DNA of 64,000 nt from Kribbella pratensis (lineage in GTDB: Bacteria > Actinomycetota > Actinomycetes > Propionibacteriales > Kribbellaceae): contig NZ_SODP01000001.1 of NCBI RefSeq assembly GCF_004365355.1, forward strand, positions 2,363,473 through 2,427,472, given 5' to 3'. Within the stretch, counting starts at the first letter, position 1; every line of letters begins with the position of its first letter. Shown in pieces: positions 11,729-39,283 of the stretch. A model generated the notes under the pieces. The model did not search any database and was not told where the DNA came from. It saw only the letters and a list, made by a program, of their open reading frames with translations. The translations under genes and the position numbers were made by a program.

Positions 11729-12979
11729 TCAACCAGGACCGAAATACCCCTCGGCATACGGAGTCACCGGCCGCGGTGTTTGATCCATCCGGCGCCGGTC
11801 CGGCCCGAACCTGGCCGGTTCGGCGATCGTCGCCAGTCCGAGCCGGGCACCGTCGAGGCGGAGGTGCACGGCCCATTCCCCAGGTTGTACGGCGCGACCG
11901 GCGAGCGCGTCGCCGACCGCCACGAGTTCAGCTTGCGTCCGATCGGGTGCCGACAGCGAGACGTGGACGTCGACCGGTTCGTCGTACGGCGGTCCGTCGG
12001 CCACCAGCAGACTGACCGCGACCCGTACGCCGTCCCGGGTTGTGTCGAGGACCGGCTGGTTCGAGAGGCCCGGCGTCCGCGCGAGCCGTTCGATCAACGA
12101 CCAGGTCTCGTCCAATGCGTCGGCCCGGGTCAGCGGGCTCGGCCGTCGCATTCGTGTCAACACCAGACCGGCGACTGCAGTTGCGCCCAGTACGAACCCG
12201 CTGGCGGTCAGGGAGCGGCTGTCGATCCCAGGTAGCACGACGTAGGCCAACACCCCGGCGCCGATCGCCTGGATCACGCACATCCAGCGCCGTCCGCTGA
12301 GTCCGGCCACCATCGGTCGGTCGTCTCCGCGAAGTCCCTCCGTGCCGAAGCGCACAACGGCGTACGAGAGCAGGAACCAGATGGTGGCCGTCCCGGGTCG
12401 GCCACCCGCGACCGCGAGGGCGACCACTCCGATGAACAGAATTCCGGCTGCCTCGATCAGCTGCACCGGCAACAGTCGCACGCCGGCCAGCCGCGCAGGC
12501 AGTCCAGCGCCCGGCGGGTACGTCGTACCGAAGGCGGCCGGAACGCCGTAGCAGCAACCAACCGAGAAGCACCCGATCCGTCCTGCGGCCAGGAACACTG
12601 TCAGGCCACAGCAAAGTACGTCGAGACCGCGCAGCACGTCGGCGCCCGCGGCCCAGCAGAAACCCGCGACCGCGAGACCCGCGACCCACACGTGTTCGAG
12701 CAGTACGAGCGACTCCCGGCCGGTGATTGCCCGCCGGAGCAAAGCCCACCCGAAGAACGATGCAGCGGCGGCAGCGCTCAGTCCGAGAACCACCACCGGA
12801 TGGACCCCGGCCCGCAGTCCCGCAAGGAGCGCGACCAGCAAAGCGCCGTAGTATCCCGCGATACCGATCGACCGGAACAGCGGCACCCGGCGGCCGCCCA
12901 GTCGCAGCAACGCCGGATCGGCACCGGCGAACTGCCGGCGCGCGCTGATCCAGGTCGTGCTGCGAGGACCCCCGGTCAT
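11729..12979 (-). CDS. Lgt-like polytopic membrane protein with cytosolic tail
   Basis: The 416-aa product resembles the prolipoprotein diacylglyceryl transferase family: about seven membrane segments over the first 270 residues and the signature-like AGRIGCFSVGCCYG followed by a PVQLIEA segment. True Lgt has GRxGNF; here Asn is replaced by Cys and two further Cys appear, so lipid transfer is uncertain. A 140-residue soluble C-terminal region (after MRRPSPLTRADA) is extra. The start is ATG 12979, placed 6 nt after a -10-like CATGGT; upstream sequence in frame is the operator, not protein. It heads minus unit A (Lgt-like, SARP, cargo 1), divergent from the particle genes. A role in anchoring or modifying eCIS components at the membrane is a guess. 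Confidence 0.65.
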   Translation of the reverse strand: MTGGPRSTTWISARRQFAGADPALLRLGGRRVPLFRSIGIAGYYGALLVALLAGLRAGVHPVVVLGLSAAAAASFFGWALLRRAITGRESLVLLEHVWVAGLAVAGFCWAAGADVLRGLDVLCCGLTVFLAAGRIGCFSVGCCYGVPAAFGTTYPPGAGLPARLAGVRLLPVQLIEAAGILFIGVVALAVAGGRPGTATIWFLLSYAVVRFGTEGLRGDDRPMVAGLSGRRWMCVIQAIGAGVLAYVVLPGIDSRSLTASGFVLGATAVAGLVLTRMRRPSPLTRADALDETWSLIERLARTPGLSNQPVLDTTRDGVRVAVSLLVADGPPYDEPVDVHVSLSAPDRTQAELVAVGDALAGRAVQPGEWAVHLRLDGARLGLATIAEPARFGPDRRRMDQTPRPVTPYAEGYFGPG

Positions 12980-12985
12980 CCTGCG

Positions 12986-12991
12986 ACCATG
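12986..12991 (-). promoter_or_regulatory. -10 element of unit A
   Basis: On the minus strand CATGGT lies 9 nt downstream of the second heptamer and 6 nt before ATG 12979. This predicts a leaderless transcript for the Lgt-like/SARP/cargo 1 unit. Confidence 0.6.
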
Positions 12992-13000
12992 CCGCGGCGG

Positions 13001-13043
13001 CGTCACGGGAGCGTCACCCCGAACAGGTGACGGTGCCGTGACG
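13001..13043. promoter_or_regulatory. Dyad SARP-type operator 1 between units A and B
   Basis: Plus strand shows CGTCACG-GGAG-CGTCACC at 13001-13018 and GGTGACG-GTGC-CGTGACG at 13026-13043, mirror images around a 7-nt centre. In each outward direction the reading is GGTGACG-N4-CGTGACG: two heptamers 11 bp apart on the same helix face, the hallmark of SARP binding. The same arrangement recurs at 25471-25523. Confidence 0.75.
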
Positions 13044-13052
13044 GGAACCGCG

Positions 13053-13058
13053 AACACT
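13053..13058 (+). promoter_or_regulatory. -10 element of unit B
   Basis: AACACT lies 9 nt after the second heptamer and 8 nt before ATG 13067, predicting a leaderless or nearly leaderless mRNA for the cap-sheath-tube unit. There is no ribosome site in front of that ATG, in keeping with this. Confidence 0.55.
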
Positions 13059-13066
13059 CCACGAGC

Positions 13067-13681
13067 ATGGCCGGTTTCGCGTCCGTCGCCGCTGTCGCGC
13101 TCAGTGTCCGTGAGCAGCTCAACCGCTGCTACGACGACCTGGTGGCCGCCGACGCCGACGCGTTCCGGGCCAAGCCGACGGCGCGTCTGGTGCAGACCAC
13201 GGACTTCGGCAAAATCGGTGGTGACGCCAATAATCCGATCCGGTTCCCGACGTTGTCGATCTTCGTCTGGCGGGTGGACGTGAACCGGACGATGCGCAGT
13301 CCCTGGTCCGCGGTCGCCGCGCAGGACCACACGATCCACCTGCCGCTCGACGTCCATCTACTGCTCACCGCGTGGGACAGCGAGGCCGAGGCCGAGCTGC
13401 GGATCCTCGGCGCGACCATGCAGTGCCTGGAGACGCGGCCGGTGATCGCCGGCCCGCGGCTGCATCCGTCCGGGAAGTGGCGGCCGGGCGAGGCAGTACA
13501 GATCGTCAACGAGGACCTGGTTACCGAGGACGTCCTGCGGACGTTCGAGACCTTGCCGGTCGACTACCGGTTGAGCGTCTCGTACCTGGCCCGCATCGCC
13601 CGGATCGACGCCCCGTCCGAACCCGACCACCCGGACGTGCTGACCGCCGTCCGCGGACTCGTGCCGTCGGTGCAGCCATGA
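13067..13681 (+). CDS. eCIS cap protein, DUF4255 / Pvc16-like
   Basis: The 204-aa product matches the DUF4255 family over its whole length: an N-terminal helix (VREQLNRCYDDL), a strand pair around PTLSIFVWRVDVNRTMRS, the motif LPLDVHLLLTAW, and later PVDYRLSVSYLARI. In Photorhabdus PVC and Serratia Afp particles the DUF4255 protein (Pvc16/Afp16) caps the inner tube and ends sheath polymerisation. It is the first gene of plus unit B, directly behind the dyad operator, and its stop overlaps the ATG of the next gene. No odd features were noted. The family call is firm and the capping role is by homology. Confidence 0.85.
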   Translation: MAGFASVAAVALSVREQLNRCYDDLVAADADAFRAKPTARLVQTTDFGKIGGDANNPIRFPTLSIFVWRVDVNRTMRSPWSAVAAQDHTIHLPLDVHLLLTAWDSEAEAELRILGATMQCLETRPVIAGPRLHPSGKWRPGEAVQIVNEDLVTEDVLRTFETLPVDYRLSVSYLARIARIDAPSEPDHPDVLTAVRGLVPSVQP

Positions 13682-14565
13682 CGCCCAACCTCTTCACGCC
13701 GCCCGAGTACGACGAAGCGCTGTGTCGGCTGGCGATCGGCGTCGAACTCGTCGATGCCCTCGACGCGCTGCCGACGTACGGCGGAGGGCGGTACCAGCGG
13801 AATGCCGCCGTACTCGATGAGCGGCATCCGTCGCCGTTGCACCAGTGGCGACGGTGGGCCGCCGGACAGACGCTGAACGACGTACTCGCCGGGCTCGACC
13901 GGCACCGGAGTGGACGGTTCGCGCATCTGTACGGCACGGCACCCGATCCGCACGACGAGAACCTGACCGTGCGCATCGTCGAACCACGCGCGAGCACCGG
14001 CCGCTACCTCGTCCCCCGTCGGCTGCGACTCCGTCTGTACGACGACCCGGTGCCGGATCCACCGCCCGATCCCGGCAATCAGCGCATCTTCCGCGTCGGC
14101 ATGTTTCCCGGGGCCGGCGCCTACCCGAGCAGCGGGTCGACCGTACTCCGAGGGCGCGTCGTGCGGCCCGGTGCCGACGGCGAGTTGCACCCGGTGCGCT
14201 GGGTCCGCGTCGTCGCCCGCGACACCTTGGACGACCTCGGCTGGGCGCACGGCGACGACCGCGGCGAGTTCGTCCTGATCCTCGGCAGTCCCGCCGGAGC
14301 GGGCACGATGCCCGTGGATCCGCTGCCGGTCGAGCTCACCCTGACCCTTCCGCCCGCGGTCACGGCCGACCCGGCGGACGTGCTGCTCAAGGTTGTCGAT
14401 CCGCTCTGGGACCTGCCCGTGCAGACCGCCATAGCCACCGACGACCCGTCGACCGATCCGGTCCTCACGGGCCGCGGTCCGTGGCCCGGGACCCCCTTCG
14501 GCCCGTTCGCCGCGCCCGTACCCCTCGGCCGTGAGAGCACGGTCACCATCCAGTTACCGGCCTGA
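13678..14565 (+). CDS. eCIS-associated protein with carboxypeptidase-regulatory-like beta sandwich
   Basis: The 295-aa product starts at ATG 13678 within the preceding stop (ATGA). A longer open frame reaching back to 13372 is only the shadow of the cap gene. The first 100 residues are charged and lack a known motif. Residues about 140-205 read like a carboxypeptidase-regulatory/transthyretin-like sandwich: a strand with LRGRVVRPG, a WVRVVARDT strand and the terminal DDRGEFVLIL turn-strand. The rest is beta-rich and Pro-rich. Position between cap and sheath suggests a structural or assembly role in the particle. A TTA codon lies three codons before the stop region (14554). Function unknown. 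Confidence 0.6.
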   Translation: MTPNLFTPPEYDEALCRLAIGVELVDALDALPTYGGGRYQRNAAVLDERHPSPLHQWRRWAAGQTLNDVLAGLDRHRSGRFAHLYGTAPDPHDENLTVRIVEPRASTGRYLVPRRLRLRLYDDPVPDPPPDPGNQRIFRVGMFPGAGAYPSSGSTVLRGRVVRPGADGELHPVRWVRVVARDTLDDLGWAHGDDRGEFVLILGSPAGAGTMPVDPLPVELTLTLPPAVTADPADVLLKVVDPLWDLPVQTAIATDDPSTDPVLTGRGPWPGTPFGPFAAPVPLGRESTVTIQLPA

Positions 14566-14583
14566 TCGACAGGAGACCAGCGA

Positions 14584-16479
14584 ATGCCCGAGTATCTGTC
14601 CCCCGGCGTGTACGTCGAGGAAACGACGTTCCGGTCGAAGTCGATCGAGGGAGTCGCCACCAGCACCACCGGCTTCGCCGGCATCACCCGCTACGGACCG
14701 GTGCAGTACGTCGACGGCGACCGCCCGGGGCCGCGCAGTACCGAGGCCCGCCTGGTCACCAGCTTCACCGAGTTCGAGCGCGTGTACGGCGGCCTCGAAC
14801 AGATCGTCCCGGCCGACGGATCGCCCAGCCGGGAGTCGTACCTGGCGCACGCCGCGCGGGCGTTCTTCCTGAACGGCGGGCGCCGGCTCTACGTCAGCCG
14901 CGTCTTCGCCCCGACCGGGACCGACCCGAACCTGGACCACGGCCTCGCCCGTCTCGCCCTGCCCTTCGGCGTCAGCGATGTCGCCACCTGGCGCGCCCGC
15001 TGGCCCGGCCAGTACGGCAACACGCTCATCACCGTACGGGCGGTCCGGAAGCGGAACTGCGCATTCCAGCACCCGTCGTTCGGGACGCAGGCGACCGCCT
15101 TGACGCGTGGCGCCGTCGTCGAGATCACCGAACCGCCGACGATCCCGCCGGACGGCGACGCCGATCTGGTACCGGGCGCCCTCGCGGTGGTCGACGAGGA
15201 TCCGACGGTCCGCGACAGCAGCGGCCGCGCCCGCCAGGTCTTCCGGAACTCCGGCGGCACCGTCGCCACCACGGCCGCGACGATCATCAAGGAGGTCGTC
15301 CTGCAGGTCCTGGTGCAGCCCGACACCGAACGGATCGACGCCTACAGCGACCTGGGGACACATCCCGCGCAGCGTCGCTGGATCGGCCACATCCTGCAGT
15401 CCGACGACCCCGAGGACGAGAACTCGGTCGTGTTCGTGGACACCGACGCGCCGGACGATCCCGCCGTACCCGCGGATCTCACCCGGGCCGTCGACCTGAT
15501 GGTCGCACTGCAGACGCCCCCGGCCGGCGTCCGGCTCGAAGGCGGTAACGACGGAGCGGTGCCGAGTCCCGACGACCTGCTCGGTCAGGACGCGTCGCCG
15601 GACATCGTGACGCAGAAGGCCACCGGCCTCGGCGCACTGGCCGAGCTGGACGACATCGCGATCGTCGCCTTGCCCGACGGCGGTACGTACGACGATGTGG
15701 ACGCCTGCCAGGCGGCGGCGTCGGCCCTGATCTCGCACGCCGAACGGATGCGCTACCGGATCGCCGTCGTCGACGCGCCGCGCGGCAGTTCGATGACCGA
15801 GGTACGAACGTTCCGCGGCAAGTTCGACACCACGCGGGCCGCCATGTACCACCCGTGGATCGAGGTCTTCGACCCATTACAGCGGATGGCCCAGGGGGCG
15901 CCGCCGCGCCGGATCCTGCTCCCGCCGTCTGGGTTCGTGACCGGGATCTACGCCCGGACGGACGTCACCCGCGGAGTCTTCAAGGCGCCGGCGAACGAGG
16001 TGGTGCAGGGGCTGACCCGGTTCGAGGCGAACATCAACACGCCGCGCAACGACGTACTGAACCCGGAGGGGATCAACGCGCTGCGGTTCTTCCCCGGGCG
16101 CGGCAGCCGGGTCTGGGGTGCGCGCACGATGACGTCGGACCCGGAATGGACGTACGTGAACGTCCGGCGGCTGTTCAACTTCCTCGAGCATTCGATCGAC
16201 CGGGCCATGCAGTACGCCGTCTTCGAGCCGAACAGCGAACGCCTGTGGGCCAGCATCCGGCAGTCCGTCGAGGACTTCCTGTACGTCCAGTGGCTGGCCG
16301 GCGCACTGCTCGGCAGCAAGCCGGACGAGGCGTTCTTCGTCCGCTGCGACCGCACCACGATGACCCAGAACGACCTGGACAACGGACGGCTGATCTGCCT
16401 GATCGGTGTCGCCCCGGTCAAGCCGGCGGAGTTCGTCATCTTCCGCATCGGACAGTTCACCGCCGACGCGCGCGCCTGA
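14584..16479 (+). CDS. eCIS tail sheath protein 1
   Basis: The 631-aa product is a contractile sheath subunit. It opens with the typical N-terminal arm (LSPGVYVEE, then TSTTGFAGITRYGP), and its C-terminal domain carries FEPNSERLW, EAFFVRCDRTTMTQNDLDNG and a final strand EFVIFRIGQF, all conserved in Pvc2-4/Afp2-4-like sheaths. The middle 250 residues form the variable outer domain. AGGAGACC precedes the ATG by about 5 nt. The tube gene follows after 24 nt. Contraction of the sheath drives the tube into the target. A TTA leucine codon at 15877-15879 is noteworthy because TTA is very rare here. Identification is secure. Confidence 0.95.
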   Translation: MPEYLSPGVYVEETTFRSKSIEGVATSTTGFAGITRYGPVQYVDGDRPGPRSTEARLVTSFTEFERVYGGLEQIVPADGSPSRESYLAHAARAFFLNGGRRLYVSRVFAPTGTDPNLDHGLARLALPFGVSDVATWRARWPGQYGNTLITVRAVRKRNCAFQHPSFGTQATALTRGAVVEITEPPTIPPDGDADLVPGALAVVDEDPTVRDSSGRARQVFRNSGGTVATTAATIIKEVVLQVLVQPDTERIDAYSDLGTHPAQRRWIGHILQSDDPEDENSVVFVDTDAPDDPAVPADLTRAVDLMVALQTPPAGVRLEGGNDGAVPSPDDLLGQDASPDIVTQKATGLGALAELDDIAIVALPDGGTYDDVDACQAAASALISHAERMRYRIAVVDAPRGSSMTEVRTFRGKFDTTRAAMYHPWIEVFDPLQRMAQGAPPRRILLPPSGFVTGIYARTDVTRGVFKAPANEVVQGLTRFEANINTPRNDVLNPEGINALRFFPGRGSRVWGARTMTSDPEWTYVNVRRLFNFLEHSIDRAMQYAVFEPNSERLWASIRQSVEDFLYVQWLAGALLGSKPDEAFFVRCDRTTMTQNDLDNGRLICLIGVAPVKPAEFVIFRIGQFTADARA

Positions 16480-16503
16480 CCAGACTGACAACCAGGAGTA
16501 TCG

Positions 16504-16965
16504 ATGCCGACCCTGCGAGACAACCCGTACCCCGCCTTCAACTTCCTGCTGTCGCTCGGCGGCGACAGCGGCAACGGTGACGAAGGCACCATCGTCGGCG
16601 GCTTCTCCGACGTCACGGGCCTGAAGTTCAGCGTCCAGTTCGCCGACTACCGCAACGGCAACGAGAAGGTGAACACCGCCCGCAAGGTGCAGAACACCTT
16701 CACCGTCGACGACATCACCTGCAAGCGCGGGGTGATCGGCAGCCGGGACCTGTTCGCCTGGCTGGAGGACGTCAGCCGGGGAACCGTCGATGCCCGGACC
16801 GTCACCGTCTCGCTGCTGGACGAGTCCCGGAACACGGTCTGCACCTGGAAGCTGCTGAACACCCAACCGAAGAGCTGGTCCGGCCCGGCGCTGGCCGGCA
16901 AGGGCGGGACCGACGTGGCGATGGAAGAGCTCGTGCTGTGTTGTCAGGGCATCGAGTTCAGCTGA
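16504..16965 (+). CDS. eCIS inner tube protein 1 (gp19/Pvc1-like)
   Basis: The 153-aa product belongs to the T4 gp19-like tail tube family: N-terminal YPAFNFLLSL, the beta-barrel segments GGFSDVTGLKFSVQFADYR and ITCKRGVIGSRDLFAWL, and the closing EELVLCCQGIEF. The length is standard for Pvc1/Afp1. Hexamers of it stack to make the tube inside the sheath, and cargo is carried in its lumen. AGGAG lies 5 nt before the ATG, a strong site befitting a high-copy subunit. It is sandwiched between two sheath genes and overlaps the second by 28 nt. Confidence 0.92.
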   Translation: MPTLRDNPYPAFNFLLSLGGDSGNGDEGTIVGGFSDVTGLKFSVQFADYRNGNEKVNTARKVQNTFTVDDITCKRGVIGSRDLFAWLEDVSRGTVDARTVTVSLLDESRNTVCTWKLLNTQPKSWSGPALAGKGGTDVAMEELVLCCQGIEFS

Positions 16966-18956
16966 CCACGGACTTCGTCCCGGGTGCGCCCGGCGTCTAC
17001 CTGACGACGCCACGGCCGCCGGACGTGCTCACCGCCGTACGACGAGACGTGGCCGCCTTCGCGGGGATCGCGCCACGCGGACCAGCGTGGCTGCCGCCCG
17101 GCCGCCCGGACGACGACGTGGACGTGGCGACGTGGCTCCAGGCCACGCCGCCAGCCCGGTCCGTACCGGTCGCTATCGGCAGCTGGGACGAGTACCGCAC
17201 GCTGTTCGGCGGGTTCGAGGGACCGGGACGCCTGCCCTACGCGGTCAGCTCGTTCTTCGCTGCGGGCGGTTCCCGGGCGTACGTCGTACGCATTGTGCAC
17301 GACGAACCGTACGACGTACTGCAGGGCCGCGCCGCCGGGGCGTTGGGCCTGCCAACAAGTGGTGGATCCGGCGTCAAGCTGCTCGCCCGCTCGGAAGGCG
17401 CCTGGGGCAACGCCCTCGCCGTGACCCTGCGTTCGGCCGCGCGACCGTTGGCGATCCGGTCGGCCACCGGCACCGAGGTGGTCGTCGATCCGTCGACGTC
17501 AGTACCCCTGGGTGCGCTGTTGCGGCTGACCCGCCCGGACGACGTCCAGCTCCTGCGGTACGTCGAGCGCGCCGACCTCCGGCCGGACCCGCAAGGACCC
17601 GCGCAACGACTGCATCTGCTGCTGGACACCGCACTTCCAGGACCGCCTTCCCTGGTCGAGCTCGTGGAGTTGAGCCTCGAGGTCATCGATCTGGATCCGG
17701 CGTTGCCGCGGGTCGAGAGACTCGACGGGATCGGTCTGCGGCCCGATCATCCTCGGTGGCTGGCCCGCGTACTGATCGGCGAATCGACCTTGCTGTGGCC
17801 CGATCCGGCGTGGGCGGCTTCGTCGATCGCTCCCCCGGATCCTTCGCTCGAACCGGTGGCGGGCGGTCCGTTCGGCGGTGGGTCGGACCGGTGGCAGGAC
17901 GTCGTACCCGAGGATTTCTGGGATCCGTTGTGGGTGCCTGGTGACGAGCGGCCGGGTGCGGGGGTGCACTGTCTGGCCGAGCTGACCGACGCGGGGTTGC
18001 TGGTCGCGCCGGATCTTTACGACCCGGCGCCATTGACGCCGGCGGGCGACGTCCGCGATCCGGTGTCCCTGGCCGGTCCCGAGTTCCAGTTGTGCGTACG
18101 CCCGGATCCGCCGCCGGAGGCGACTCCGCGGCCGCCCGGGCTCGACGGGCTGCGGCTCGATCCGTCGGTGCCGTCCGAGCTCGATCGGATCACGGCGGCG
18201 CAGTCCGAGCTGGTGCGGTTCGCCGATCAGCGGCGTGAGTTCACCGTGCTGCTCGACGTACCGTTGGGACTTCCACCAGGGCGGCTCCTGCAGTGGCGGA
18301 CGTCCTTCGATTCGCCGTACGCCGCGACGTACCACCCGTGGCTGGATGTGGCGGCACCGGACGACGACCGCGACGATCTGGTCCGGATGAACCCGTCGGT
18401 GTTCGCGGCCGGGATCATCGCCGATCGCGAACAGCGGCTGGGAATCCCGCGCGGTCCGGCCAATCAGATCGCGGTCGGTGCGGTCCGGGTGTCGACGCCG
18501 GTGCCGGAGGTGCTGCACGACGTACTGCATCCCGCCGGGATCAATGTGTTCACACTCGACCGCGACGGTATCCGGTTGTCGGCCGCGAGGACTCTCAGCC
18601 TTCGCCCGGAACTGCGGCAGCTCTCGGTCGCGCGGCTGCTCACTGTGCTCCGGCTGACGCTCGAACGCGAGCTCGCCTGGGTCACCTTCGAGCCCAACAG
18701 CGAGGAGTTGTGGGGCCGGATCCGGCGGGCGGTCGGCGGGCTGCTGCAGCAGTTCTTCGTCGCCGGTGCATTCGCCGGCGCGAAACCGAGCGAGGCGTTC
18801 TTCGTGCGCTGCGACCGCACGACGATGACGCAGAACGACCTCGACAACGGAAGGATGGTCTGCCTGATCGGCGTGGCACCGGCCGAGCCGCTGGAGTTCC
18901 TGGTCCTGCAGCTGATGCACGAGCCGGACGCCTCGGTCCGCGTCGAGGCCCGCTGA
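16938..18956 (+). CDS. eCIS tail sheath protein 2
   Basis: The 672-aa product is a second sheath subunit. It has an N-terminal PGAPGVYL arm, and its C-terminal block (FEPNSEELW, EAFFVRCDRTTMTQNDLDNG, then PLEFLVLQL) is almost the same as in sheath 1, whereas the middle differs strongly. The likely start is GTG 16938 inside the tube gene, with GGAAGAG 8 nt upstream; no ATG is available, so the exact start is uncertain by a few codons. PVC and Afp particles also use several sheath paralogs, one for the bulk and others for the baseplate-proximal or distal rings. The gene ends in TGATG with the next start. Confidence 0.92.
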   Translation: MLSGHRVQLTTDFVPGAPGVYLTTPRPPDVLTAVRRDVAAFAGIAPRGPAWLPPGRPDDDVDVATWLQATPPARSVPVAIGSWDEYRTLFGGFEGPGRLPYAVSSFFAAGGSRAYVVRIVHDEPYDVLQGRAAGALGLPTSGGSGVKLLARSEGAWGNALAVTLRSAARPLAIRSATGTEVVVDPSTSVPLGALLRLTRPDDVQLLRYVERADLRPDPQGPAQRLHLLLDTALPGPPSLVELVELSLEVIDLDPALPRVERLDGIGLRPDHPRWLARVLIGESTLLWPDPAWAASSIAPPDPSLEPVAGGPFGGGSDRWQDVVPEDFWDPLWVPGDERPGAGVHCLAELTDAGLLVAPDLYDPAPLTPAGDVRDPVSLAGPEFQLCVRPDPPPEATPRPPGLDGLRLDPSVPSELDRITAAQSELVRFADQRREFTVLLDVPLGLPPGRLLQWRTSFDSPYAATYHPWLDVAAPDDDRDDLVRMNPSVFAAGIIADREQRLGIPRGPANQIAVGAVRVSTPVPEVLHDVLHPAGINVFTLDRDGIRLSAARTLSLRPELRQLSVARLLTVLRLTLERELAWVTFEPNSEELWGRIRRAVGGLLQQFFVAGAFAGAKPSEAFFVRCDRTTMTQNDLDNGRMVCLIGVAPAEPLEFLVLQLMHEPDASVRVEAR

Positions 18957-20434
18957 TGTTCGACCTGGCCCGCTGGCAGGCGAGCTTCGGCCGCAGCCTG
19001 TCCCATGTCGTTGTCCACGACAGCCATCAGTCCGCCGCGCTCACGACCGCGCAGGACGCGTACGGCGTCGCGACCGGCGGCGACGTGTTCCTCGGGCGCC
19101 CGCCGACCGGTGAGCTCGGCGGCGGCACCGCGCACGAAGCGGTACTGGCGCATGAGCTTGCACATGCGTTGGGCGCCGGCACCGAGGAAGGTGCGGAGCG
19201 GGCCGCGACCGGTGCGCGGGCCCGGATGCACGGACGAGGTGGGCCTGCTCCCGACATACTGGCATCGAGTGGCCGGGGGTTGGCGCTGCACTCGTGTTCG
19301 AAGGGGCCGTCGAAGGCCCAGCGGGCGCTGGACGGCGAGATCCCGTTCACCGCGGAGCTCGCGCGCGACGCGTTGTCGGAGTACCGGGCCCTGGGCGACC
19401 TCGACCGCCAGCGGGCCGTCGACAAGTACTACCCGAGCGGAGCGATGCAGCGACTGCTGACCTCGCTGCCTCCGGACGACGCGTCCGGACCGTTCAACGA
19501 CGTCGTCCAGGACGTCCTCCAGCGGGTACAGCGCGCTGCCGCGGTCACCTCGGCCCAGGCGTCCGGCCTGTCGAGTGAGAGCGCCATGGTCGCCGCGCAG
19601 ACCGCGCACATGCAGGCTGAGAACCTGGCTCTCGCGCAGGCCACGACCGGCTCGGCCACGCCGACGCCCGCGCAGGTGAGCGCCGAACAGACGAACCAGG
19701 TCGCGCAGACGTCGATCGCACCGTCGAGCTCGGTGCTGACTCCGTCCCAGATCGTCATGGACACCGCAGCCGCCTTCGGTGCGGTGGCTTCCGTGGTCTC
19801 CTACGCCAAGGCCAAGCACCCGGAGCTGCACCTGACCGCGGCCGACTTCAAGGTCGACGTCGTCGGCCTGGAGAACCGCGGTGCCGGCGTCATCGCGTAC
19901 GGCGAGGTCGTCGGCGGCCGCCACGTCGCGACCGTCGGCCGGACCTTCACCAGGTTCGTCCAGGCGAATCCGGCCTACGCTCTGAGTGTGGTGGTCCACG
20001 AGTTGCACGGTCATCCCGAGTACGGCCCGTACGGTCGCCCCGGCAGCGAGTACGGCCTGGAGTTGTACGACCGGGCCGCCTGGCTGATGCCCGGGTACGT
20101 GCAGCCGACGGGTGCCGGCCGTACCAGCGAGATCGATGCCTACGGCTACCAGGAGACCGAGATCTACTCGTTGCTGCGATCACTGCCGTACCACACGTCG
20201 CTGGCACCCAAGGACGCCGCGCTGCAGGCGTCGTACGTCGATCCGGAGCCGACCGTCGTCGGGCGGCTGCAGCTCGTCCGGTCGCAATGGGACGCCCGGG
20301 TCGCGAAGGCGCTGGTACGCGGCATGTACGAACGGCTCCGGCTCGACCCCCGCCTCAGCCCGGCCGCACTCAGCGCCTTCCGGCGGTCGGTCACCGTTGT
20401 CTTCGGCGCCGACGCGAAGGACATTCTGAAATGA
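18956..20434 (+). CDS. eCIS cargo 2: DUF4157-like protein with HELHGH motif
   Basis: The 492-aa product starts at ATG 18956 in a TGATG overlap with sheath 2; the open frame further upstream is a shadow. Residues about 1-80 form a compact DUF4157-like domain with HELAH at 66-70. A helical Ala/Gln/Thr-rich stretch spans about 180-270. A second domain (about 270-492) contains VVVHELHGHPEYGPYG at 345-360, a metal-site-like HExHxH pattern, followed by conserved-looking Tyr/Glu-rich sequence (EIDAYGYQETEIY). I suggest a loaded effector whose C-terminal part is a metal-dependent enzyme, possibly a peptidase; the motif is not a canonical HExxH. It lies inside the structural operon, not at the locus edge, and is overlapped by a small HEAT-like gene. 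Confidence 0.7.
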   Translation: MFDLARWQASFGRSLSHVVVHDSHQSAALTTAQDAYGVATGGDVFLGRPPTGELGGGTAHEAVLAHELAHALGAGTEEGAERAATGARARMHGRGGPAPDILASSGRGLALHSCSKGPSKAQRALDGEIPFTAELARDALSEYRALGDLDRQRAVDKYYPSGAMQRLLTSLPPDDASGPFNDVVQDVLQRVQRAAAVTSAQASGLSSESAMVAAQTAHMQAENLALAQATTGSATPTPAQVSAEQTNQVAQTSIAPSSSVLTPSQIVMDTAAAFGAVASVVSYAKAKHPELHLTAADFKVDVVGLENRGAGVIAYGEVVGGRHVATVGRTFTRFVQANPAYALSVVVHELHGHPEYGPYGRPGSEYGLELYDRAAWLMPGYVQPTGAGRTSEIDAYGYQETEIYSLLRSLPYHTSLAPKDAALQASYVDPEPTVVGRLQLVRSQWDARVAKALVRGMYERLRLDPRLSPAALSAFRRSVTVVFGADAKDILK

Positions 20435-20985
20435 CCGGCTACGACCAGCTGCTGGCCGCCGTACTCACGCCGTTCGGTGAGCCGGCCGCGCGCCGGGAGC
20501 GTGAGCGGGCGCTGACCGTCCTGCTCCGCGACCATCACGACCGCGCCGAGGCCGATCTGACGGCCGCCGTCCGCGCCAACCCGACCGGCCTTCAAGTCCC
20601 TGCTGTGCTCGAGCTTCTGCCGTTCTTCAGCAGCCCGGAGGTCGTCGCCGTCCTCGAGTCGTTGATGAACGGCGACGACCCGGAGATCGCTGCCCACGCA
20701 GGCATCGCGCTCGGTCGCGTGACCGACCCCACCGCTCGGTCCGCCATCGAGCGTTCCCTGGCCTCCACGTCAGCCCAGACCACCGCAGCCGCCGCCGATG
20801 CCGCGGCCACGACCACGGACCCGACGTACTGCGCGGCCCTGCGGAACCGCCTCACCGACGAGTCGCCCGTCGTCCGCTTCCACGTCGTCCACGCACTGCT
20901 GACCCTCGATTGCCTGAGTGCCGAAGACCGCGCCGAACTGGCACAAACCGAGCACGACCCCGACGTGACGTCCCTACTGGCCTAG
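20431..20985 (+). CDS. HEAT-repeat-like small protein, eCIS unit B
   Basis: The 184-aa product starts at ATG 20431 overlapping the cargo 2 stop (ATGA). It reads as repeated antiparallel helix pairs (LQVPAVLELLPFF, EVVAVLESLMNGDDPEIAAHAGIALGRV, ESPVVRFHVVHALLTLD), each with the Asp/Pro turn and Ala-Gly helix packing of HEAT or PBS-type repeats. Such scaffolds bind other proteins. Coupled translation with cargo 2 suggests a loading chaperone or a neutralising partner for it, which is inference. Its stop overlaps the convergent small gene of unit C by 12 nt. Confidence 0.6.
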   Translation: MTGYDQLLAAVLTPFGEPAARRERERALTVLLRDHHDRAEADLTAAVRANPTGLQVPAVLELLPFFSSPEVVAVLESLMNGDDPEIAAHAGIALGRVTDPTARSAIERSLASTSAQTTAAAADAAATTTDPTYCAALRNRLTDESPVVRFHVVHALLTLDCLSAEDRAELAQTEHDPDVTSLLA

Positions 20986-21279
20986 TTTGCCGGCCAGCTT
21001 CGTCAGCACCGCGACGTACGCATCACGGCCCTCGGACGGCGCCATCCGGCGGACCGCGAGCTCCGGCATCGACCGCAGTACGGCGACCACTCGCGCGCGA
21101 TCCTCCGCCGGAAAGTCCCCCGGGTCCAGCCAGCCGAGATTGTGCTCCGAGATGCTCCGCACCCGGGCCGCGAGTTCCGGATCGTCGAGTTCGTCGACCA
21201 GGGTGTCGATCACCCAGTAGAACACCCACGACGACGCCGACCACAGGGTGCCGTCCGGTAACGCGATGCTGCCCGCCAT
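20974..21279 (-). CDS. Small immunity-like protein, partner of cargo 3
   Basis: The 101-aa acidic protein lies 16 nt downstream of the large DUF4157 gene on the same strand. It is rich in Trp, Asp and Leu helices (LWSASSWVFYWVIDTLVDEL, EHNLGWLDPGDF, DRARVVAVLRSMPEL). I do not recognise a named family. Size, acidity and position right after a polymorphic-toxin-like C-terminus are those of an immunity protein. eCIS cargo genes usually travel without one, so this pairing is unusual. It overlaps the convergent HEAT-like gene by 12 nt at the 3' end. Confidence 0.55.
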   Translation of the reverse strand: MAGSIALPDGTLWSASSWVFYWVIDTLVDELDDPELAARVRSISEHNLGWLDPGDFPAEDRARVVAVLRSMPELAVRRMAPSEGRDAYVAVLTKLAGKLGQ

Positions 21280-21295
21280 CAGCTGTCACTCACGA

Positions 21296-24200
21296 TCAGT
21301 TGTCACTCACGATGAAGGCCCGAGGTTTCCGGGGTGCGACGAACTTCTCCACTTCCAGACGCTGGGCCGGAGTGAGCGTGGAGACATCCACGGGGACGAA
21401 GTCCGCGTACTTCAGGTGCTCGTCGATCTGGAGTTGGAGTCGCGGCCACTGCTGGTCGAAGAAGCGCGCCGGGATCCCGCTGCCGACCGCGTCGTACGTC
21501 TTGCCGTCCTGATCCGCCCAGTCGAGCTCCGTTGCGGCCGGCAGTCTGGTCAACGTCACGTTCTTCTCCTTCATCACCAGCAGGGCGGTGTTGAACTCGG
21601 GTCCGCGGAACAGCGCCGGCGCCGGGTCGACGCCGAGGGCGAGGAGGGCGGGCCGTCCCCCGCTGGCCAGTACGTACTCCGACCATTCCCCGTCCTTCGT
21701 CGGGATCTTCCCCGCGGCCGCGCCTTCGATCCGTTGCTGGTGATACTCGAAGAACGACAGCGCCACCTTCTCATGGTTGGTGCGCTGGATCACCTCGTGC
21801 AGGTACGGCAGCTTGGTGCGGCGATCGATCGGCCAGTCGAACGTCTTCCCGCCGAGCGTCAGCTTCGCCAGCTGATAGTGACCGGGCGCGTTCTTGTCGT
21901 GCCGGACCAGGTACAGCTGACCGGTCGAAGCGTTCACCCGGTAGTGATGGCCGGGCGTCATCGGCAGCCCGGCGCGGCGTGCGGTCTGGTTGCCGACGCC
22001 CGTACCCGCGGCGATCCAGCCGCGGCCGCGGTCGAGCGAGTTGACCGCGTCCTGGTACTCGTCGATCTGCGCCCGAAGGTCCGCGAGCCGGGCCTGGTGC
22101 GCGGCCGGGTCGGCGCCGGACCGCTGCAGTGCGGCCATCTCGGCCGACACCTCGGCCTCGATCGCGCGCAGCTTGGCGATCTCGGCACGCGCCTCGAATC
22201 CCTTGGACATGAACGCCGGATCGCCCACCAACCGGTCGAGGACCCGGCGGAAGAACCCGCGGATTCCGACGTACTCCGAGAGGTACCGGGCGGTCTCGAC
22301 GTGGTGCCGTACGTCGGCCGGCCCCGCGCGACTACTGACCTCGATCCGGACCTGCATGGCGTCGTACACGACCCGGGCGACCACACCTTCAGGGAGGATC
22401 GCCTGCACGACCGGTACGCGGTCGGCGAGCTCGGGCGGGATCTGCTCGCGCATCGCCGCCATTTCGCTGTCGGTGTGCGGCCACAGCACGTCGACCAGGG
22501 CGAACTTGTCAGCCACGGCCGGGTCGCCCGTCAGTGCGCGATCCGGATCCGCACCGGCCGTCTTCGCCGTGGTCAGCGCGTCCCGCAGCGCGATCAAGCT
22601 GGGCCGGTCCGGGTGGTTCTCCGGCAAGGTCAAGAGCTGGCGCTGCAACGTGGCGAGCATTGCCTCCTGGGACTGCTCCGACGACACCGACATCCGCACA
22701 GCCGGGCCGCTGGCATCGCGTGCGGTCCGGATGACCTGCTCACCGATCACCTTGACGCCGCGCTCCAGGACGAAGCCGACCGCGGCCTGCATCAGCTGTA
22801 CGACGTCGTCCTCGGTGACCTTGGCGAACCACCCGAGACCTCGCGCGCGATCGAACGAGTCGGCGGTCGCCGCCTCACGGAAGAACTCGCCGAGGGTGAT
22901 CGCGGCGGTGATGTCGTTCACGCCTTCGGTCTGCATGAAGCCCTGGTAGCCGGCCGCCAGTACCTCTCCGACCGGTCCGAGCGCCAGCAGGCCCTGCATC
23001 AGGACGATCTGCTTGCCGATCTCGAGCACCATCGAGGCGATGCCTTGCGGCGTCAGGGCGGCCATGACGCTGCCGCCCGTACCCCAATCGGCATTGGAGA
23101 TCACGAGGACGGTGGCGATGCGTTGGTCGGCCCGGAGTGGTTGGGCGAAGTACGCGTGCAGGTAGGTCTCGAGGCGGGTGATGGCCTCGTCGACCGGCGA
23201 CGGTGCAGGCGAGGTCTTGGACACGCCCGCCAGGTTCCGGAGTCCCGCCACCGCCGCCAGATCCGCCGCGATCCGGGGCGAGGTCGAAGGCTGTCTTTCG
23301 CCCTGCAGATAACGCGCGACAGCGGTTCCGGTGCTGTGCTCGACATCGCCGGTGCGTGCTCCAGGTCCGCCGAGTGGTAGGCCGGTCGGCGAGCGCGCTG
23401 CCGTCGTCTCGCGCAGCTCGGCGATCTCCTGGCGCCGCGCCAGCAGCCAGGCCGCCGTCGGCTCCGGCATCGTCTGCAGTTCCTGCTGTTCGACCCGAGT
23501 ATGCAACAGATCCCACAGATCGATGAGGTAGTGCCAGCCCGCCCTGTCCGGGGCTGGGTCGAGCCCGTTCAACGGCACGCCCATTGCATTGGCCATGCCA
23601 ACGGCTTGCGCGGTCCCGGATCGGTCGGGAGGCTTGGCCAGCAGTACCTTCTTGAGTTGCTCCCCGGTTGACTCGGCCCGGCCCTTCGCCGCCGTCGACG
23701 GCGTTTGCGGCTGCAGCGCCGAGCCGTATCCCCGGCCGAACGACAGGTGCGCGTCGGCCGAAGTGATCGTTCGGACGGCGGTGTCCAACGGCTCGGCCGA
23801 TACCTGGCGACGGAAGTCCCGGCTGATACCGGCCGAGGCCGGAAGCATCTGGCTGAAGGAGTTGATCCACATCGCGCGAGCGAAGCCACCGCTGACCGCG
23901 GACACTCCCATTCCCCATCCCGCCACCGAGAACGCGTCACGACGTACCATCTGCGGTTCCGGTTCTGCGGGTGCGCCCAACGATCGGCTACTGCCGGCGC
24001 CGAGACCGAGGGTGCCGCCGGACGTCGCGTGCCGGAGCGTGGCGTGGGCGGAGTCCTCCGGCTGGAGCTGGTACGTCAACGCCATCACCAGCGCCCATCG
24101 CGGATCGCGCTTCTCCTGCTCCGGACTGCGGAACGCGCGCCAGCTTCGATACACGCGAACGAACTCCGGCAGGTCGTACACCGGATTGCCCGGTACGAGC

Positions 24201-24316
24201 GCCTCGTCGAGCGCAGCCCGCTGCGACGACGTCTGCTGCAGCCGCGTCCGGAGATCGGCGACCCACCGTTCCTCGGCCGCGTCGGTGGCCTTCGGGAACG
24301 CCTCCTCGGGCAGCAC
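21296..24316 (-). CDS. eCIS cargo 3, C-terminal part with CdiA-like toxin domain (frame-broken)
   Basis: This open frame (from GTG 24316, in-frame residues extending back to about 24345) is the continuation of the DUF4157 gene at 24085-25449. The joint ...DLSL|GGFEADSDRRVLPEE reads smoothly if one G is added to a G5 run (plus-strand C5 at 24342-24346). The 1006 residues comprise a helical middle with hydrophobic stretches near residues 400-470 (VMAALTPQGIASMVLEIGKQ, LALGPVGEVLAAG), a coiled coil near 700-770, and a C-terminal domain of about 190 residues. The latter has LFRGPEFNTALLVMKEK, DGKTYDAVGSGIPARFFD and HLKYADFVPVDVSTLT, a pattern I associate with CdiA-like contact-dependent toxin nuclease domains. 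An immunity-like gene follows. If the shift is real the protein is cut off before its toxin. Confidence 0.7.
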   Translation of the reverse strand: MLPEEAFPKATDAAEERWVADLRTRLQQTSSQRAALDEALVPGNPVYDLPEFVRVYRSWRAFRSPEQEKRDPRWALVMALTYQLQPEDSAHATLRHATSGGTLGLGAGSSRSLGAPAEPEPQMVRRDAFSVAGWGMGVSAVSGGFARAMWINSFSQMLPASAGISRDFRRQVSAEPLDTAVRTITSADAHLSFGRGYGSALQPQTPSTAAKGRAESTGEQLKKVLLAKPPDRSGTAQAVGMANAMGVPLNGLDPAPDRAGWHYLIDLWDLLHTRVEQQELQTMPEPTAAWLLARRQEIAELRETTAARSPTGLPLGGPGARTGDVEHSTGTAVARYLQGERQPSTSPRIAADLAAVAGLRNLAGVSKTSPAPSPVDEAITRLETYLHAYFAQPLRADQRIATVLVISNADWGTGGSVMAALTPQGIASMVLEIGKQIVLMQGLLALGPVGEVLAAGYQGFMQTEGVNDITAAITLGEFFREAATADSFDRARGLGWFAKVTEDDVVQLMQAAVGFVLERGVKVIGEQVIRTARDASGPAVRMSVSSEQSQEAMLATLQRQLLTLPENHPDRPSLIALRDALTTAKTAGADPDRALTGDPAVADKFALVDVLWPHTDSEMAAMREQIPPELADRVPVVQAILPEGVVARVVYDAMQVRIEVSSRAGPADVRHHVETARYLSEYVGIRGFFRRVLDRLVGDPAFMSKGFEARAEIAKLRAIEAEVSAEMAALQRSGADPAAHQARLADLRAQIDEYQDAVNSLDRGRGWIAAGTGVGNQTARRAGLPMTPGHHYRVNASTGQLYLVRHDKNAPGHYQLAKLTLGGKTFDWPIDRRTKLPYLHEVIQRTNHEKVALSFFEYHQQRIEGAAAGKIPTKDGEWSEYVLASGGRPALLALGVDPAPALFRGPEFNTALLVMKEKNVTLTRLPAATELDWADQDGKTYDAVGSGIPARFFDQQWPRLQLQIDEHLKYADFVPVDVSTLTPAQRLEVEKFVAPRKPRAFIVSDN

Positions 24317-25449
24317 CCGCCGGTCGGAGTCCGCCTCGAAACCCCCAACGACAGGTCAGCCGGCGCGAGCAGCCGCTCGTCGTCCGGCAACTGCCGCCGC
24401 GTGTCCGCCTCCGTCTCCGACGCCTGACGTACTCCGGCCTGCTCGGCGCGCATTCCGGACAGCGGCGCCGCCTCGCCACGTGGATCCAGAGCCGCCCGCA
24501 ACCGCGCGTCCAGCAGTAGAGCACGCCGGGCCAGTACGCCGATCTCGGGCCCGCGGGACGGATCCGAGGAGAACTCTTCGCGGGCCCGCGTGAGCTCGTC
24601 CATCGTGCCGTCCAGCTCGAGCTGCCACGCGATCGCGGCATCGGACAACGCCGCGGCCGCCGAGTCCAGGTCGTCCTCCAAGGTGACCCATAGACCGGTA
24701 ACGACAGCCTGCGCGTCGGCGGCCAGCAGACCCGCGGCGTGCGTGGTCGCCTGGTTCAGCCAGAGCGAGACGCCGTACGATACGTCAACGACGTCGGCCT
24801 GGGTCGCATCAGCGCCGAGTACGCTGATCAACCGGTCCCGGATCGCGGTCCAGCCGAGTTGCTCGCGGCCGACCGCCGCAGACATCGTGCTGATGCCGTA
24901 GATCGTGTCCTCGACCAGGTCCGGCGTACCGAACTCGACTGAGACGGCCTTGAGGAGCAGGTTCGCGAGCTCGCCTTCCTCGGCCGATTCGGTGAAGGCG
25001 TCATGGACGCGATACCGGAAGTCGTCGCTGAGCTCGGCGGGGCCGTCGTCGTGGAAGACACCGCGGTACCCGGGCTCGCGCACGGCGCCGGACAGCGGGC
25101 CGAGCGGGCGGCCGGTCGCGACGTACGCCGAGACCGTCCGGGCGAGCTGTTCCTCGCGCGCGCTCAAGCCGGAGCTGGTCGCGTCGGGATGCCCGGATCG
25201 CAAGGCATGCACGACTTCATGCGCAGCCGTCTGTCTGCTTGGTTCGCCGCGGAAACTCACCACGCCGGGCGCTGCGGTCCCGTACCTACCTTCACCAGGG
25301 CCGGGATCGCGGCGGATCCCGTCGAGCGACAGGCCGAAGGCAGACTCCAGCGCATCGCGGTACGGGAGCCGGGTCCCCTCCGCGGACGGCGCACGAGGTC
25401 GATGCGCCGCCTTCTCGGTCGCATGCTCGTGGGGCTCGTGCAGGGACAC
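24085..25449 (-). CDS. eCIS cargo 3, DUF4157 N-terminal part (frame-broken)
   Basis: The start is GTG 25449: it stands 6 nt after the -10-like GATCCT with the same spacing as the other promoters of the locus, whereas the alternative GTG 25476 lies inside the operator. A DUF4157 domain occupies about residues 25-130 with AAHEVVH (HEVVH at 77-81 from this start). A helical region follows. Up to about residue 368 the sequence is normal; after the C5 run at 24342-24346 the frame turns Arg/Ser/Cys-rich and stops at 24085, plainly an out-of-frame reading of the next part. The intact protein would be about 1380 residues, close to cargo 1 (1392). Unit C begins here, divergent from tube 2. Confidence 0.7.
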   Translation of the reverse strand: MSLHEPHEHATEKAAHRPRAPSAEGTRLPYRDALESAFGLSLDGIRRDPGPGEGRYGTAAPGVVSFRGEPSRQTAAHEVVHALRSGHPDATSSGLSAREEQLARTVSAYVATGRPLGPLSGAVREPGYRGVFHDDGPAELSDDFRYRVHDAFTESAEEGELANLLLKAVSVEFGTPDLVEDTIYGISTMSAAVGREQLGWTAIRDRLISVLGADATQADVVDVSYGVSLWLNQATTHAAGLLAADAQAVVTGLWVTLEDDLDSAAAALSDAAIAWQLELDGTMDELTRAREEFSSDPSRGPEIGVLARRALLLDARLRAALDPRGEAAPLSGMRAEQAGVRQASETEADTRRQLPDDERLLAPADLSLGVSRRTPTGGCCPRRRSRRPPTRPRNGGSPISGRGCSRRRRSGLRSTRRSYRAIRCTTCRSSFACIEAGARSAVRSRRSAIRDGRW

Positions 25450-25455
25450 GGGTGC

Positions 25456-25461
25456 AGGATC
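25456..25461 (-). promoter_or_regulatory. -10 element of unit C
   Basis: Minus-strand GATCCT lies 9 nt after the second heptamer and 6 nt before GTG 25449. The spacing repeats that of unit A and decides the start of cargo 3. Confidence 0.6.
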
Positions 25462-25470
25462 GCCGGGACA

Positions 25471-25523
25471 CGTCACACTGCCGTCACCGATTGCGCCTGG
25501 GCAGTGGTGACGGTCGTGTGACG
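25471..25523. promoter_or_regulatory. Dyad SARP-type operator 2 between units C and D
   Basis: CGTCACA-CTGC-CGTCACC (25471-25488) and GGTGACG-GTCG-TGTGACG (25506-25523) mirror each other around a 17-nt centre. Each outward reading is GGTGACG-N4-TGTGACG, differing from operator 1 in one base of the second heptamer, while the N4 spacers differ freely. That pattern of conserved heptamers and free spacers indicates a true binding site. Confidence 0.75.
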
Positions 25524-25532
25524 GCCGGGATC

Positions 25533-25538
25533 GAGAGT
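25533..25538 (+). promoter_or_regulatory. -10 element of unit D
   Basis: GAGAGT lies 9 nt after the second heptamer and 6 nt before ATG 25545, matching units A and C and predicting a leaderless start of the long baseplate operon. Confidence 0.6.
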
Positions 25539-25544
25539 GGCGGC

Positions 25545-26024
25545 ATGGCGGATCTGCTGCTGACCACGTTCCGGTTCGAGCTGGAGTTCAACCGGGTCGC
25601 GGGCGACGGGCCGCAGGTGCTCGGCGACGGCGGGTTCCAGGAGATCAGCGGGCTCGAGATCGAGATGGACGTCAAGGACCTCGAGGTCGGCGGGCAGAAC
25701 ACCTCGGTGGTACGCCGCGTCGGGCGGGCGAAGTACTCACGGCTGGTGTGCAAGCGCGGAATGTTCGGTCCGGCCGGCGGGGACGCCGTACCGGAATTGT
25801 GGCAGTGGTTCCAGGACGTCGTCGCCGGCGTCCGCCCGGTCCGCCGCTACGACGGCACGGTGATCGTGCAGGACCAACTCCGGCGCCCGATGGCGAGCTG
25901 GCAGTTCTTCCGCGCGCTGCCGGTGAAGATCGTGGGTCCGCAACTGAACGCGAAGACCGGTGAGGTCGCGATCGAGGAACTGCAGCTCGCACATGAAGGT
26001 CTGCTGCTGGCGGGGACCGCATGA
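25545..26024 (+). CDS. eCIS tube protein 2 (gp19-like, Pvc5-type)
   Basis: The 159-aa product is a second gp19-family tube protein: FRFELEFNR, GGFQEISGLEIEMDVKDLE, a cysteine-containing strand LVCKRGMFG and the closing EELQLAHEGLLL. It shares the family layout with tube 1 but little sequence. In PVC/Afp the divergent copy (Pvc5/Afp5) forms the layer joining the tube to the spike hub, and its position next to the tube-initiator gene fits this. It is the first gene of unit D, behind the dyad operator, and its TGA overlaps the next ATG. Confidence 0.88.
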   Translation: MADLLLTTFRFELEFNRVAGDGPQVLGDGGFQEISGLEIEMDVKDLEVGGQNTSVVRRVGRAKYSRLVCKRGMFGPAGGDAVPELWQWFQDVVAGVRPVRRYDGTVIVQDQLRRPMASWQFFRALPVKIVGPQLNAKTGEVAIEELQLAHEGLLLAGTA

Positions 26025-27388: not shown

Positions 27389-27549
27389 GCATCCACATCG
27401 GTGAGGTCACCTCCGACGTCGAGGCGACGACCGCCGAGCCGATCACCGGCGAGGCGACCGCGAGCGTCTGGCAGGAGCGACTCCGGATCGAGGGCGCGCT
27501 CGAGCAACTGGCCGCCGATCGGCTGCGAACGGCGACCGGCGATGAGTGA
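27385..27549 (+). CDS. 54-aa eCIS baseplate-associated protein
   Basis: This small gene starts at GTG 27385 in a GTGA overlap with the tube initiator and shares 8 nt (ATGAGTGA) with the hub gene. It encodes a short strand (IHIGEVTSDVEA) and a helix (VWQERLRIEGALEQLAADRL). Small proteins at this place are usual in eCIS loci (DUF5908-like position). No catalytic residues are seen; an adaptor for the hub is likely. The tight double overlap is good evidence that it is translated. Confidence 0.65.
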   Translation: MSIHIGEVTSDVEATTAEPITGEATASVWQERLRIEGALEQLAADRLRTATGDE

Positions 27550-28633: not shown

Positions 28634-28649
28634 GGCGAAGGACACCGTC

Positions 28650-31039: not shown

Positions 31040-31431
31040 CTCCGTTCGTCGACCGGCTGGGGACCGGCTGGGATCTGGCCCTGGCGCCCGATCCGGTGCG
31101 CGGGGCGCTCAGCTACCGCTCGGGTCCGGAGAAGGTCCGGCAGGCGATCCAGGTGATCCTCCTGACCGAGCCGGGAGAGCGGGTGATGCGGCCGGAGTTC
31201 GGCTGCGGCCTGCGCCGGTACCTGATGGAACCCAACACGGTCTCCGTCCGCGCGTCGCTGCAGCGTGCGGTCGCCGGCGCGATCGAGGCCTGGGAACCCC
31301 GCGTCCGGCTGCTCGATGTGTCCGTCACGCCTGGCGCCGACCCGGCTGTCGCGGTGATCGCGATCCGGTACGAGCACCGCCGGGACGGTACGCCGGGTCA
31401 GGTCGTCCAGGCCCTGCCGCTGGGAGGTTGA
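31036..31431 (+). CDS. eCIS baseplate wedge protein gp25/GPW (Pvc9-like)
   Basis: The 131-aa product matches the GPW/gp25 family: an N-terminal helix-loop (WDLALAP), a central helix (GPEKVRQAIQVILLTEPGERVMRPEFGCGLRRYL), and C-terminal strands. The segment TEPGERVMRPEFGCGL is the family signature, including the Glu-Pro-Gly-Glu-Arg core used to nucleate the sheath. The start is ATG 31036, overlapping the preceding stop. Confidence 0.93.
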   Translation: MTPFVDRLGTGWDLALAPDPVRGALSYRSGPEKVRQAIQVILLTEPGERVMRPEFGCGLRRYLMEPNTVSVRASLQRAVAGAIEAWEPRVRLLDVSVTPGADPAVAVIAIRYEHRRDGTPGQVVQALPLGG

Positions 31432-31435
31432 GCCG

Positions 31436-35829: not shown

Positions 35830-35837
35830 GGGCCACG

Positions 35838-39282: not shown

Positions 39283-39283
39283 G

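Follow-up and report, generated by a model that had tools for sequence, protein, structure and literature searches.

A predicted one-locus SARP regulon in an extracellular contractile injection system of Kribbella pratensis

The window analysed here, a 64,000-nucleotide stretch of the Kribbella pratensis genome (contig NZ_SODP01000001.1, positions 2,363,473 to 2,427,472), holds a predicted extracellular contractile injection system (eCIS) locus, which is wholly covered by four units, A to D, each headed by one copy of the same direct-repeat site. On comparative sequence evidence, we judge it very probable that the stand-alone SARP (Streptomyces antibiotic regulatory protein) encoded in unit A binds the four sites and would thereby activate its own operon in concert with the genes of the particle and the predicted cargo. 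The best reading of the locus is that of a dedicated one-locus SARP regulon, as predicted from its promoters. More guardedly, we lean towards the broader proposal that this SARP branch is the master switch of an actinobacterial eCIS lineage found in at least two classes, with the 32-bp word GTGACG-N5-GTGACG-N10-A-N3-T (the promoter word) acting as a plug-in socket; the promoters would be leaderless, self-amplifying and arranged back to back, coordinating the parts of the particle, and new cargo would join through a single acquired copy of the word. The SARP family is known from antibiotic clusters, and the proposal, if true, extends it to a protein-injection machine. For the eCIS lineage there is now a defined operator with a candidate activator, and four start sites are predicted, so that the question of its activation can be tested directly.

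The four sites in the window

All four sites read GGTGACG-N4-YGTGACG-N9-NANNNT-N6/N8-start codon. Site 1 (GGTGACG-CTCC-CGTGACG; 13001–13018, minus strand) is followed after 9 nt by the -10-like hexamer CATGGT (12986–12991, minus strand), which lies N6 from the ATG at 12979 and belongs to the predicted promoter of unit A (LGT-SARP-eCIS_core). Facing away from it is site 2 (GGTGACG-GTGC-CGTGACG; 13026–13043, plus strand), in the predicted promoter of unit B (Pvc16, sheaths, tube), with AACACT at the same 9 nt (13053–13058, plus strand) and N8 to the ATG at 13067; this hexamer and its N8 are identical in Actinoplanes sp. M2I2. In the second divergent region, site 3 (GGTGACG-GCAG-TGTGACG; 25471–25488, minus strand) would serve unit C, the predicted cargo, through GATCCT, 9 nt on (25456–25461, minus strand) and N6 from the GTG at 25449. 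Site 4 (GGTGACG-GTCG-TGTGACG; 25506–25523, plus strand) would serve unit D (second tube, baseplate, AAA), its hexamer GAGAGT again standing 9 nt past the site (25533–25538, plus strand) and N6 from the ATG at 25545.

The four sites are thus as an earlier, sequence-only reading described them: the pattern runs outward both ways at 13001–13043 and 25471–25523, and the heptamers, their spacing and the -10 position are constant at all four promoters (N6, N8, N6 and N6 to the start codon), while the N4 spacers and the centres vary. That reading also saw in them the known SARP layout, which passages of PMC10936776 give as repeats 11 bp apart with the 3' repeat 8 bp from the -10. The 11-bp spacing holds for all four sites; 9 nt, not 8, separate heptamer and hexamer, and the count becomes 8 if the heptamer frame is shifted one base later. 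Recent duplication of one dyad was considered as the origin of the two regions and rejected, because their centre gaps (7 and 17 bp) and N4 spacers differ.

The exact form is not scattered through the genome. The 18-mer GGTGACG-N4-YGTGACG has four exact matches in 8,365,383 bp, and each of them lies at a unit head within one of the two divergent promoter regions of the eCIS. With one mismatch there are 21 further matches genome-wide versus 5 in the reversed control, and the promoter word with one mismatch adds a single genome site versus 1 in the reversed control. With up to three mismatches the window yields 27 matches where shuffles lead one to expect 45, and the only matches without mismatch are the four sites. 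The idea that this word marks a SARP regulon spread over the whole Kribbella pratensis genome was also considered and set aside, the exact sites being confined to one locus.

Conservation in related eCIS loci

A search with the SARP alignment finds eight loci in titled genome records, five of which contain orthologues of the window's eCIS: Actinoplanes sp. M2I2 (L011), Paractinoplanes deccanensis (L012) and three metagenome-assembled genomes (MAGs) of Acidimicrobiia (L013, L015, L017). The L011 locus was searched with the known word, and in L012 to L017 chosen promoter regions were scanned for any hexamer repeated at 11 bp; GTGACG showed up in this free scan, among other repeats. Our set of seven genomes consists of the window's own, Actinoplanes, Paractinoplanes, the three MAGs and a genome of the same order, G798.

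Whole-genome searches of the five relatives and the window's genome return 16 exact matches to the promoter word, every one at an eCIS operon head, and over the seven genomes the count is 18 of 18 (seven at Pvc16, seven at the second tube gene, tubeB, three at LGT and one at cargo). The reversed control of the exact pattern gives 0 in all ten genomes of the first whole-genome search. At the Pvc16 and second-tube heads of the orthologous loci, GTGACG-N5-GTGACG stands upstream in 14 of 14 cases (7/7 for each head); the runner-up word, which overlaps it, is present at 7 of 14. In the seven-genome counts the two contigs of G791 were assigned to one genome, as were the two of G793. This count leaves out L014/L087, a diverged eCIS with degenerate sites at 9539 and 9565; L016/L089, a short contig with a SARP only; L018, which has no eCIS match; and G019, G026 and G129, whose eCIS are diverged.

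G798, which was unseen when the motif was defined, came from an order-wide Pvc16 search that matched 4 of 391 genomes, the window's own included. It carries exact sites at Pvc16 and the second tube and a one-mismatch site facing LGT; one further one-mismatch match is unrelated, and the reversed control also gives 1. Four further genomes yield five matches (L087, G129, L089, L088 and L090), of which that in L087 lies in a diverged eCIS/SARP locus, that in G129 lies behind a SARP, with eCIS genes in the region, and that in L089 follows a SARP on a short contig.

The repeats could in principle have been kept merely because the locus is young and spreads horizontally, with no regulatory role. Its patchy lineage fits such a history: a Pvc16 search at E 1e-30 matches a single genome out of 394 in the class, the window's own, and at E 1e-10 the 38 genomes of the genus give the window's own and two diverged relatives (41 and 34% identity). 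Yet the encoded proteins are only ~41–86% identical across the loci and the promoter DNA around the sites has diverged, while the sites keep both their repeats and the +9 hexamer, and we give this explanation next to no weight. A class search around G073 (3 genomes) returned no matches.

Spacing, -10 hexamer and start codon

When every GTGACG-N5-GTGACG is collected from 235 kb of the seven-genome loci, with no hexamer required, 20 sites result, all at eCIS or SARP heads. NANNNT occurs at offset 9 in 18 of the 20 and at offset 10 in one, versus none at offsets 3–8 and 11–16, a figure that is partly conditioned on the hexamer: a pattern containing it had led to the L085 and L086 stretches and, in L082 and L084, to the second-tube parts. 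The second GTGACG ends 21–23 nt before an in-frame start codon at 12 of the 14 heads; at the L084 tubeB gene this codon is a GTG at 21 nt. The AfsR box is centred at -29.5 (PMC10936776), and by this geometry the start codon would fall within ~3 nt of the predicted transcription start. The mRNAs of these promoters are therefore likely to be leaderless.

The SARP and its link to the sites

The SARP gene is the second of unit A (10924–11715, minus strand; 263 aa), where the sequence-only reading had placed it. Its product matches BTAD (PF03704) with 74.7 bits (cutoff 22.1) and is the sole SARP match in the window. Ahead of BTAD, where SARPs carry an N-terminal OmpR-type winged-helix DNA-binding domain, the predicted model shows strands, then three helices, then strands, with moderate model confidence. 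Foldseek gives six matches at E ≤ 0.001, every one an AfsR or EmbR chain (250–273 columns), and AfsR is the nearest solved structure. The residues T88 and R92 of AfsR contact DNA, according to passages of PMC10936776, and phmmer alignment to AfsR suggests that they correspond to S80 and R84 of the unit A SARP; R84 is invariant in an alignment of 17 sequences.

A phylum scan with the promoter word finds 15 matches in 9 of 396 genomes and none in the reversed control; because of this specificity the word is usable in the search for regulon members. Seven of the 11 sites outside the window's genome have a SARP homologue no more than 300 bp upstream; they come from five of eight genomes (two of one genus). 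In L011 the SARP gene stands directly behind one site. Two genomes of the window's genus with diverged eCIS (G019, G026) have a site preceding the SARP gene; its position weight matrix (PWM) scores are 19.7 and 20.8, a range that one control also reaches; G019 has a site at Pvc16 as well.

Conceivably, the sites are bound by another protein, either a SARP paralogue encoded elsewhere or an unrelated regulator, and the unit A SARP does something else. Several relatives have two or three SARP-like genes, i.e., several candidate binders, and the regulator of the Streptomyces cluster is the LuxR-type SlpR/SCO4263 (PMC8505568). Against this, the window has a single SARP match, the repeat spacing is SARP-like, the L011 gene directly adjoins a site, and the motif follows SARP genes even where no close eCIS relative is nearby; we consider a different binder improbable. 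That one activator serves particle, cargo and itself, as first proposed from the window's sequence, is supported by the confinement of the exact sites to the four unit heads, by their SARP-like layout, by the recurrence of the site at particle operon heads in six other genomes and by its tendency to follow SARP genes elsewhere.

If the unit A SARP is the binder, each of the four outward-facing predicted promoters would offer it one copy of the shared direct-repeat site. By analogy with AfsR on the afs box, the two GTGACG repeats would be occupied by two adjacent SARP protomers, which would recruit sigma region 4 to a poor -10. Transcripts would start at the start codon or a few bases off, giving leaderless mRNAs; the SARP operon's own site would create a positive feedback switch, and cargo genes would enter the regulon through their own copy of the site. 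The repeat word of the afs box differs from GTGACG, and that box is found outside any eCIS locus.

Several observations weigh against this reading or its parts. The Pfam search of the SARP matched BTAD and no separate DNA-binding domain, and AlphaFold models it with moderate confidence (pLDDT 72.6, pTM 0.44); against AfsR the model reaches TM-scores of ~0.4. Among the 11 phylum-scan sites outside the window's genome, three (L049, L050, L055) have no SARP in ~10 kb of flank and one is 5.1 kb from the nearest SARP, and the several SARP-like genes of some relatives leave more than one candidate there. Two of the 21 whole-genome matches (L088, L090) have no eCIS or SARP match nearby. One-mismatch matches stand at 4 versus 1 in the control for G798, 6 versus 1 for G026 and 2 versus 1 for G019, and one G798 match and five G026 matches lie elsewhere in their genomes. 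Leaderless spacing fails at two of the 14 heads, where the tube gene starts 55 nt (L086) and 72 nt (L085) past the repeat. In L082 (gap 1 bp), L013 (55) and L096 (9), the outward partner at Pvc16 carries one mismatch, and the partner beside tubeB is weak in L085 and was not recognised in L011, L084 and L097. Finally, the PWM scores of mismatched sites (18.6–23.6) overlap those of controls, which reach 20.5 for one match in 249 kb of reversed sequence and 18.0 at most in 640 kb of shuffled sequence; a group of 'unrelated' loci was dropped as a PWM control, many of them having been selected for matching the pattern.

Some further features adjoin SARP genes in other genomes. A variant repeat, GCGACG at 11-bp spacing, lies ahead of the SARP genes in L012, L013, L015 and L017, and is perhaps a weaker self site. 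A small ORF (open reading frame) of ~60–75 aa, whose core resembles [IVL]-R-[VL]-W-x-E, recurs next to SARP genes, several of its copies having the promoter word in front; it lies downstream of the SARP in L051, L052, L053 and L054 and is also seen at L082:2951, L091:1444, L084:3128 and L096:12853. A search of the window for its core pattern gave no match. In L052 and L053, which are of one genus, the SARP and the promoter word precede a gene that by eye we take to be manganese catalase-like; the SARP branch may for this reason reach beyond eCIS.

Fourteen viral contigs matched the promoter pattern. We take these matches as background, because tblastn found no SARP or eCIS match beside them in the stretches obtained. 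The SARP alignment has no relative among the viral contigs; a sheath search in them finds one eCIS contig (L033), which shows no SARP match and no site over PWM 12.3.

Architecture of the divergent regions

The sequence-only reading treated each divergent region as one palindromic operator, and here the comparison points elsewhere. Across loci, the gaps between outward sites are 7, 17, 31, 1, 55, 18, 18, 9, 477 or 2,987 bp, and each promoter owns a site. In all seven loci the Pvc16 site is paired with an outward-facing partner, whose repeats are exact in the window (gap 7 bp), L011 (31), L091 (18) and L084 (2,987). For the second tube, the partner has exact repeats in the window (17 bp) and in L086 (18 bp, the hexamer there lacking the A), and in L082 it is distant (477 bp) with one mismatch. 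Because the gaps vary, we see two independent outward sites rather than a fixed palindrome, and the best reading of each divergent region is a pair of independent predicted SARP promoters placed back to back.

A composite operator, its halves cooperating through a fixed centre, would account for both halves being exact in the window and in L091, and for the occurrence of gaps of 7, 9, 17, 18 and 18 bp. It fits poorly with a spread from 1 to 2,987 bp, with the site at the L011 tubeB gene, for which no partner was recognised, and with the presence of a separate hexamer at +9 for 18 of the 20 sites, and we regard it as very unlikely. In L011 the tube gene directly follows the HEAT gene with no cargo block between them, so the window's block, with its own site, looks inserted. 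Variable partners and the apparent cargo insertion together are the reason that we term the site a socket rather than a palindrome.

Known systems and prior literature

Statements on published systems refer to passages of the papers named. BTAD has been named as an eCIS shell domain, and adjacent GerE/BTAD genes have been proposed as regulators (PMC8213781, Geller et al. 2021), a proposal restated in PMC12961389; the work of Geller et al. concerns domain co-occurrence, and its passages give no site, promoter or regulon. In S. clavuligerus, a SARP has been tied to CIS genes via STRING (PMC13102240). The term SARP is absent from the main text of PMC11126660 and PMC13277306, and we found no description of a SARP operator in an eCIS in the passages of open-licence literature. 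The suggestion that such a site tied to an eCIS was undescribed thus stands for the operator within the open-licence literature searched, whereas BTAD regulation of adjacent eCIS had already been proposed (PMC8213781).

In the S. coelicolor CIS, four promoters spread over two divergent regions share one timing (PMC10020575), and the cluster-specific regulator of the Streptomyces CIS, SlpR/SCO4263, is described as LuxR-type and bldA-dependent (PMC8505568, PMC10286715). The window would share with it the two divergent promoter regions, the four promoters and a cluster-specific regulator (PMC10020575, PMC8505568); it differs in that the Streptomyces regulator is LuxR-type and that no SARP operator figures in the regulation described in those passages. 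Overexpression of atrA lowers eCIS proteins in one mutant background (PMC13170358).

Among SARP operators, that of the AfsR–afsS promoter in Streptomyces coelicolor resembles the window's sites in that direct repeats of 11 bp immediately precede a poor -10 (PMC10936776). The PimR/pimM operator (SARP-LAL, CGGCAAG) is similar in its heptamer and 4-bp spacers, and unlike them in its three repeats and secondary operator, its one target gene, its place in an antifungal cluster and its other word (PMC5930380).

Transcription units and predicted cargo

The particle is predicted from its genes, the eCIS/contractile injection system set (sheath, tube, baseplate, AAA ATPase, eCIS_core) being present; the domains matched are Phage_sheath_1, T4_gp19, CIS_tube, GPD, Phage_base_V, Baseplate_J, Tail_P2_I, AAA, eCIS_core and Pvc16_N. 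Six uncharacterised proteins of the locus gave no NCBIfam match. From the gene order, each of the units A to D is predicted to be a single transcript.

Unit A (12979 to 6749, minus strand) encodes an LGT-like membrane protein, the SARP and an eCIS_core protein. The LGT-like gene at its head (11729–12979, minus strand) matches PF01790 with 60.7 bits, and NCBIfam lgt models scored under their cutoff; it is an odd eCIS companion to find heading a SARP operon, and an LGT relative points away from Pvc16 in L012, L013, L015, L017 and G798. The last gene (6749–10927, minus strand) encodes a protein of 1392 aa assigned to eCIS_core (DUF4157) by domain match. Unit B (13067–20985, plus strand) contains genes for Pvc16_N, an unknown protein, sheath, tube, a second sheath-like protein whose score is under the Pfam cutoff, eCIS_core and a HEAT protein. 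Unit D (25545–45228, plus strand) comprises the second tube, CIS_tube, the GPD hub, the base_V spike base, Baseplate_J, Tail_P2_I, the AAA ATPase and unknown genes.

Unit C (20974–25449, minus strand), which we infer to be cargo, consists of a head ORF, a second ORF and a small last ORF. Read from the GTG at 25449, the head ORF has an HExxH stretch within its first 95 residues, in an N-terminal context that we take, by recognition, to be eCIS_core-like. The sole database copy is 79 residues shorter. The earlier start is favoured because site 3 stands at the spacing for it, and the promoter word thus points to a start that the database copy misses. Pfam gives no match to the head ORF even at E 5, and among 7991 candidates scored from the protein collection it has no relative other than its own shorter version.

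The second ORF (21296–24316) has a weak C-terminal match to CdiA_C_tRNase, at 24.7 bits (cutoff 26.5). It overlaps the head ORF in a different frame at 24085–24316, where the end of the head ORF looks out of frame; a sequencing error, a decayed gene or frameshifting could each produce this overlap. The second ORF is followed by an ORF of 101 aa, which could be an immunity gene.

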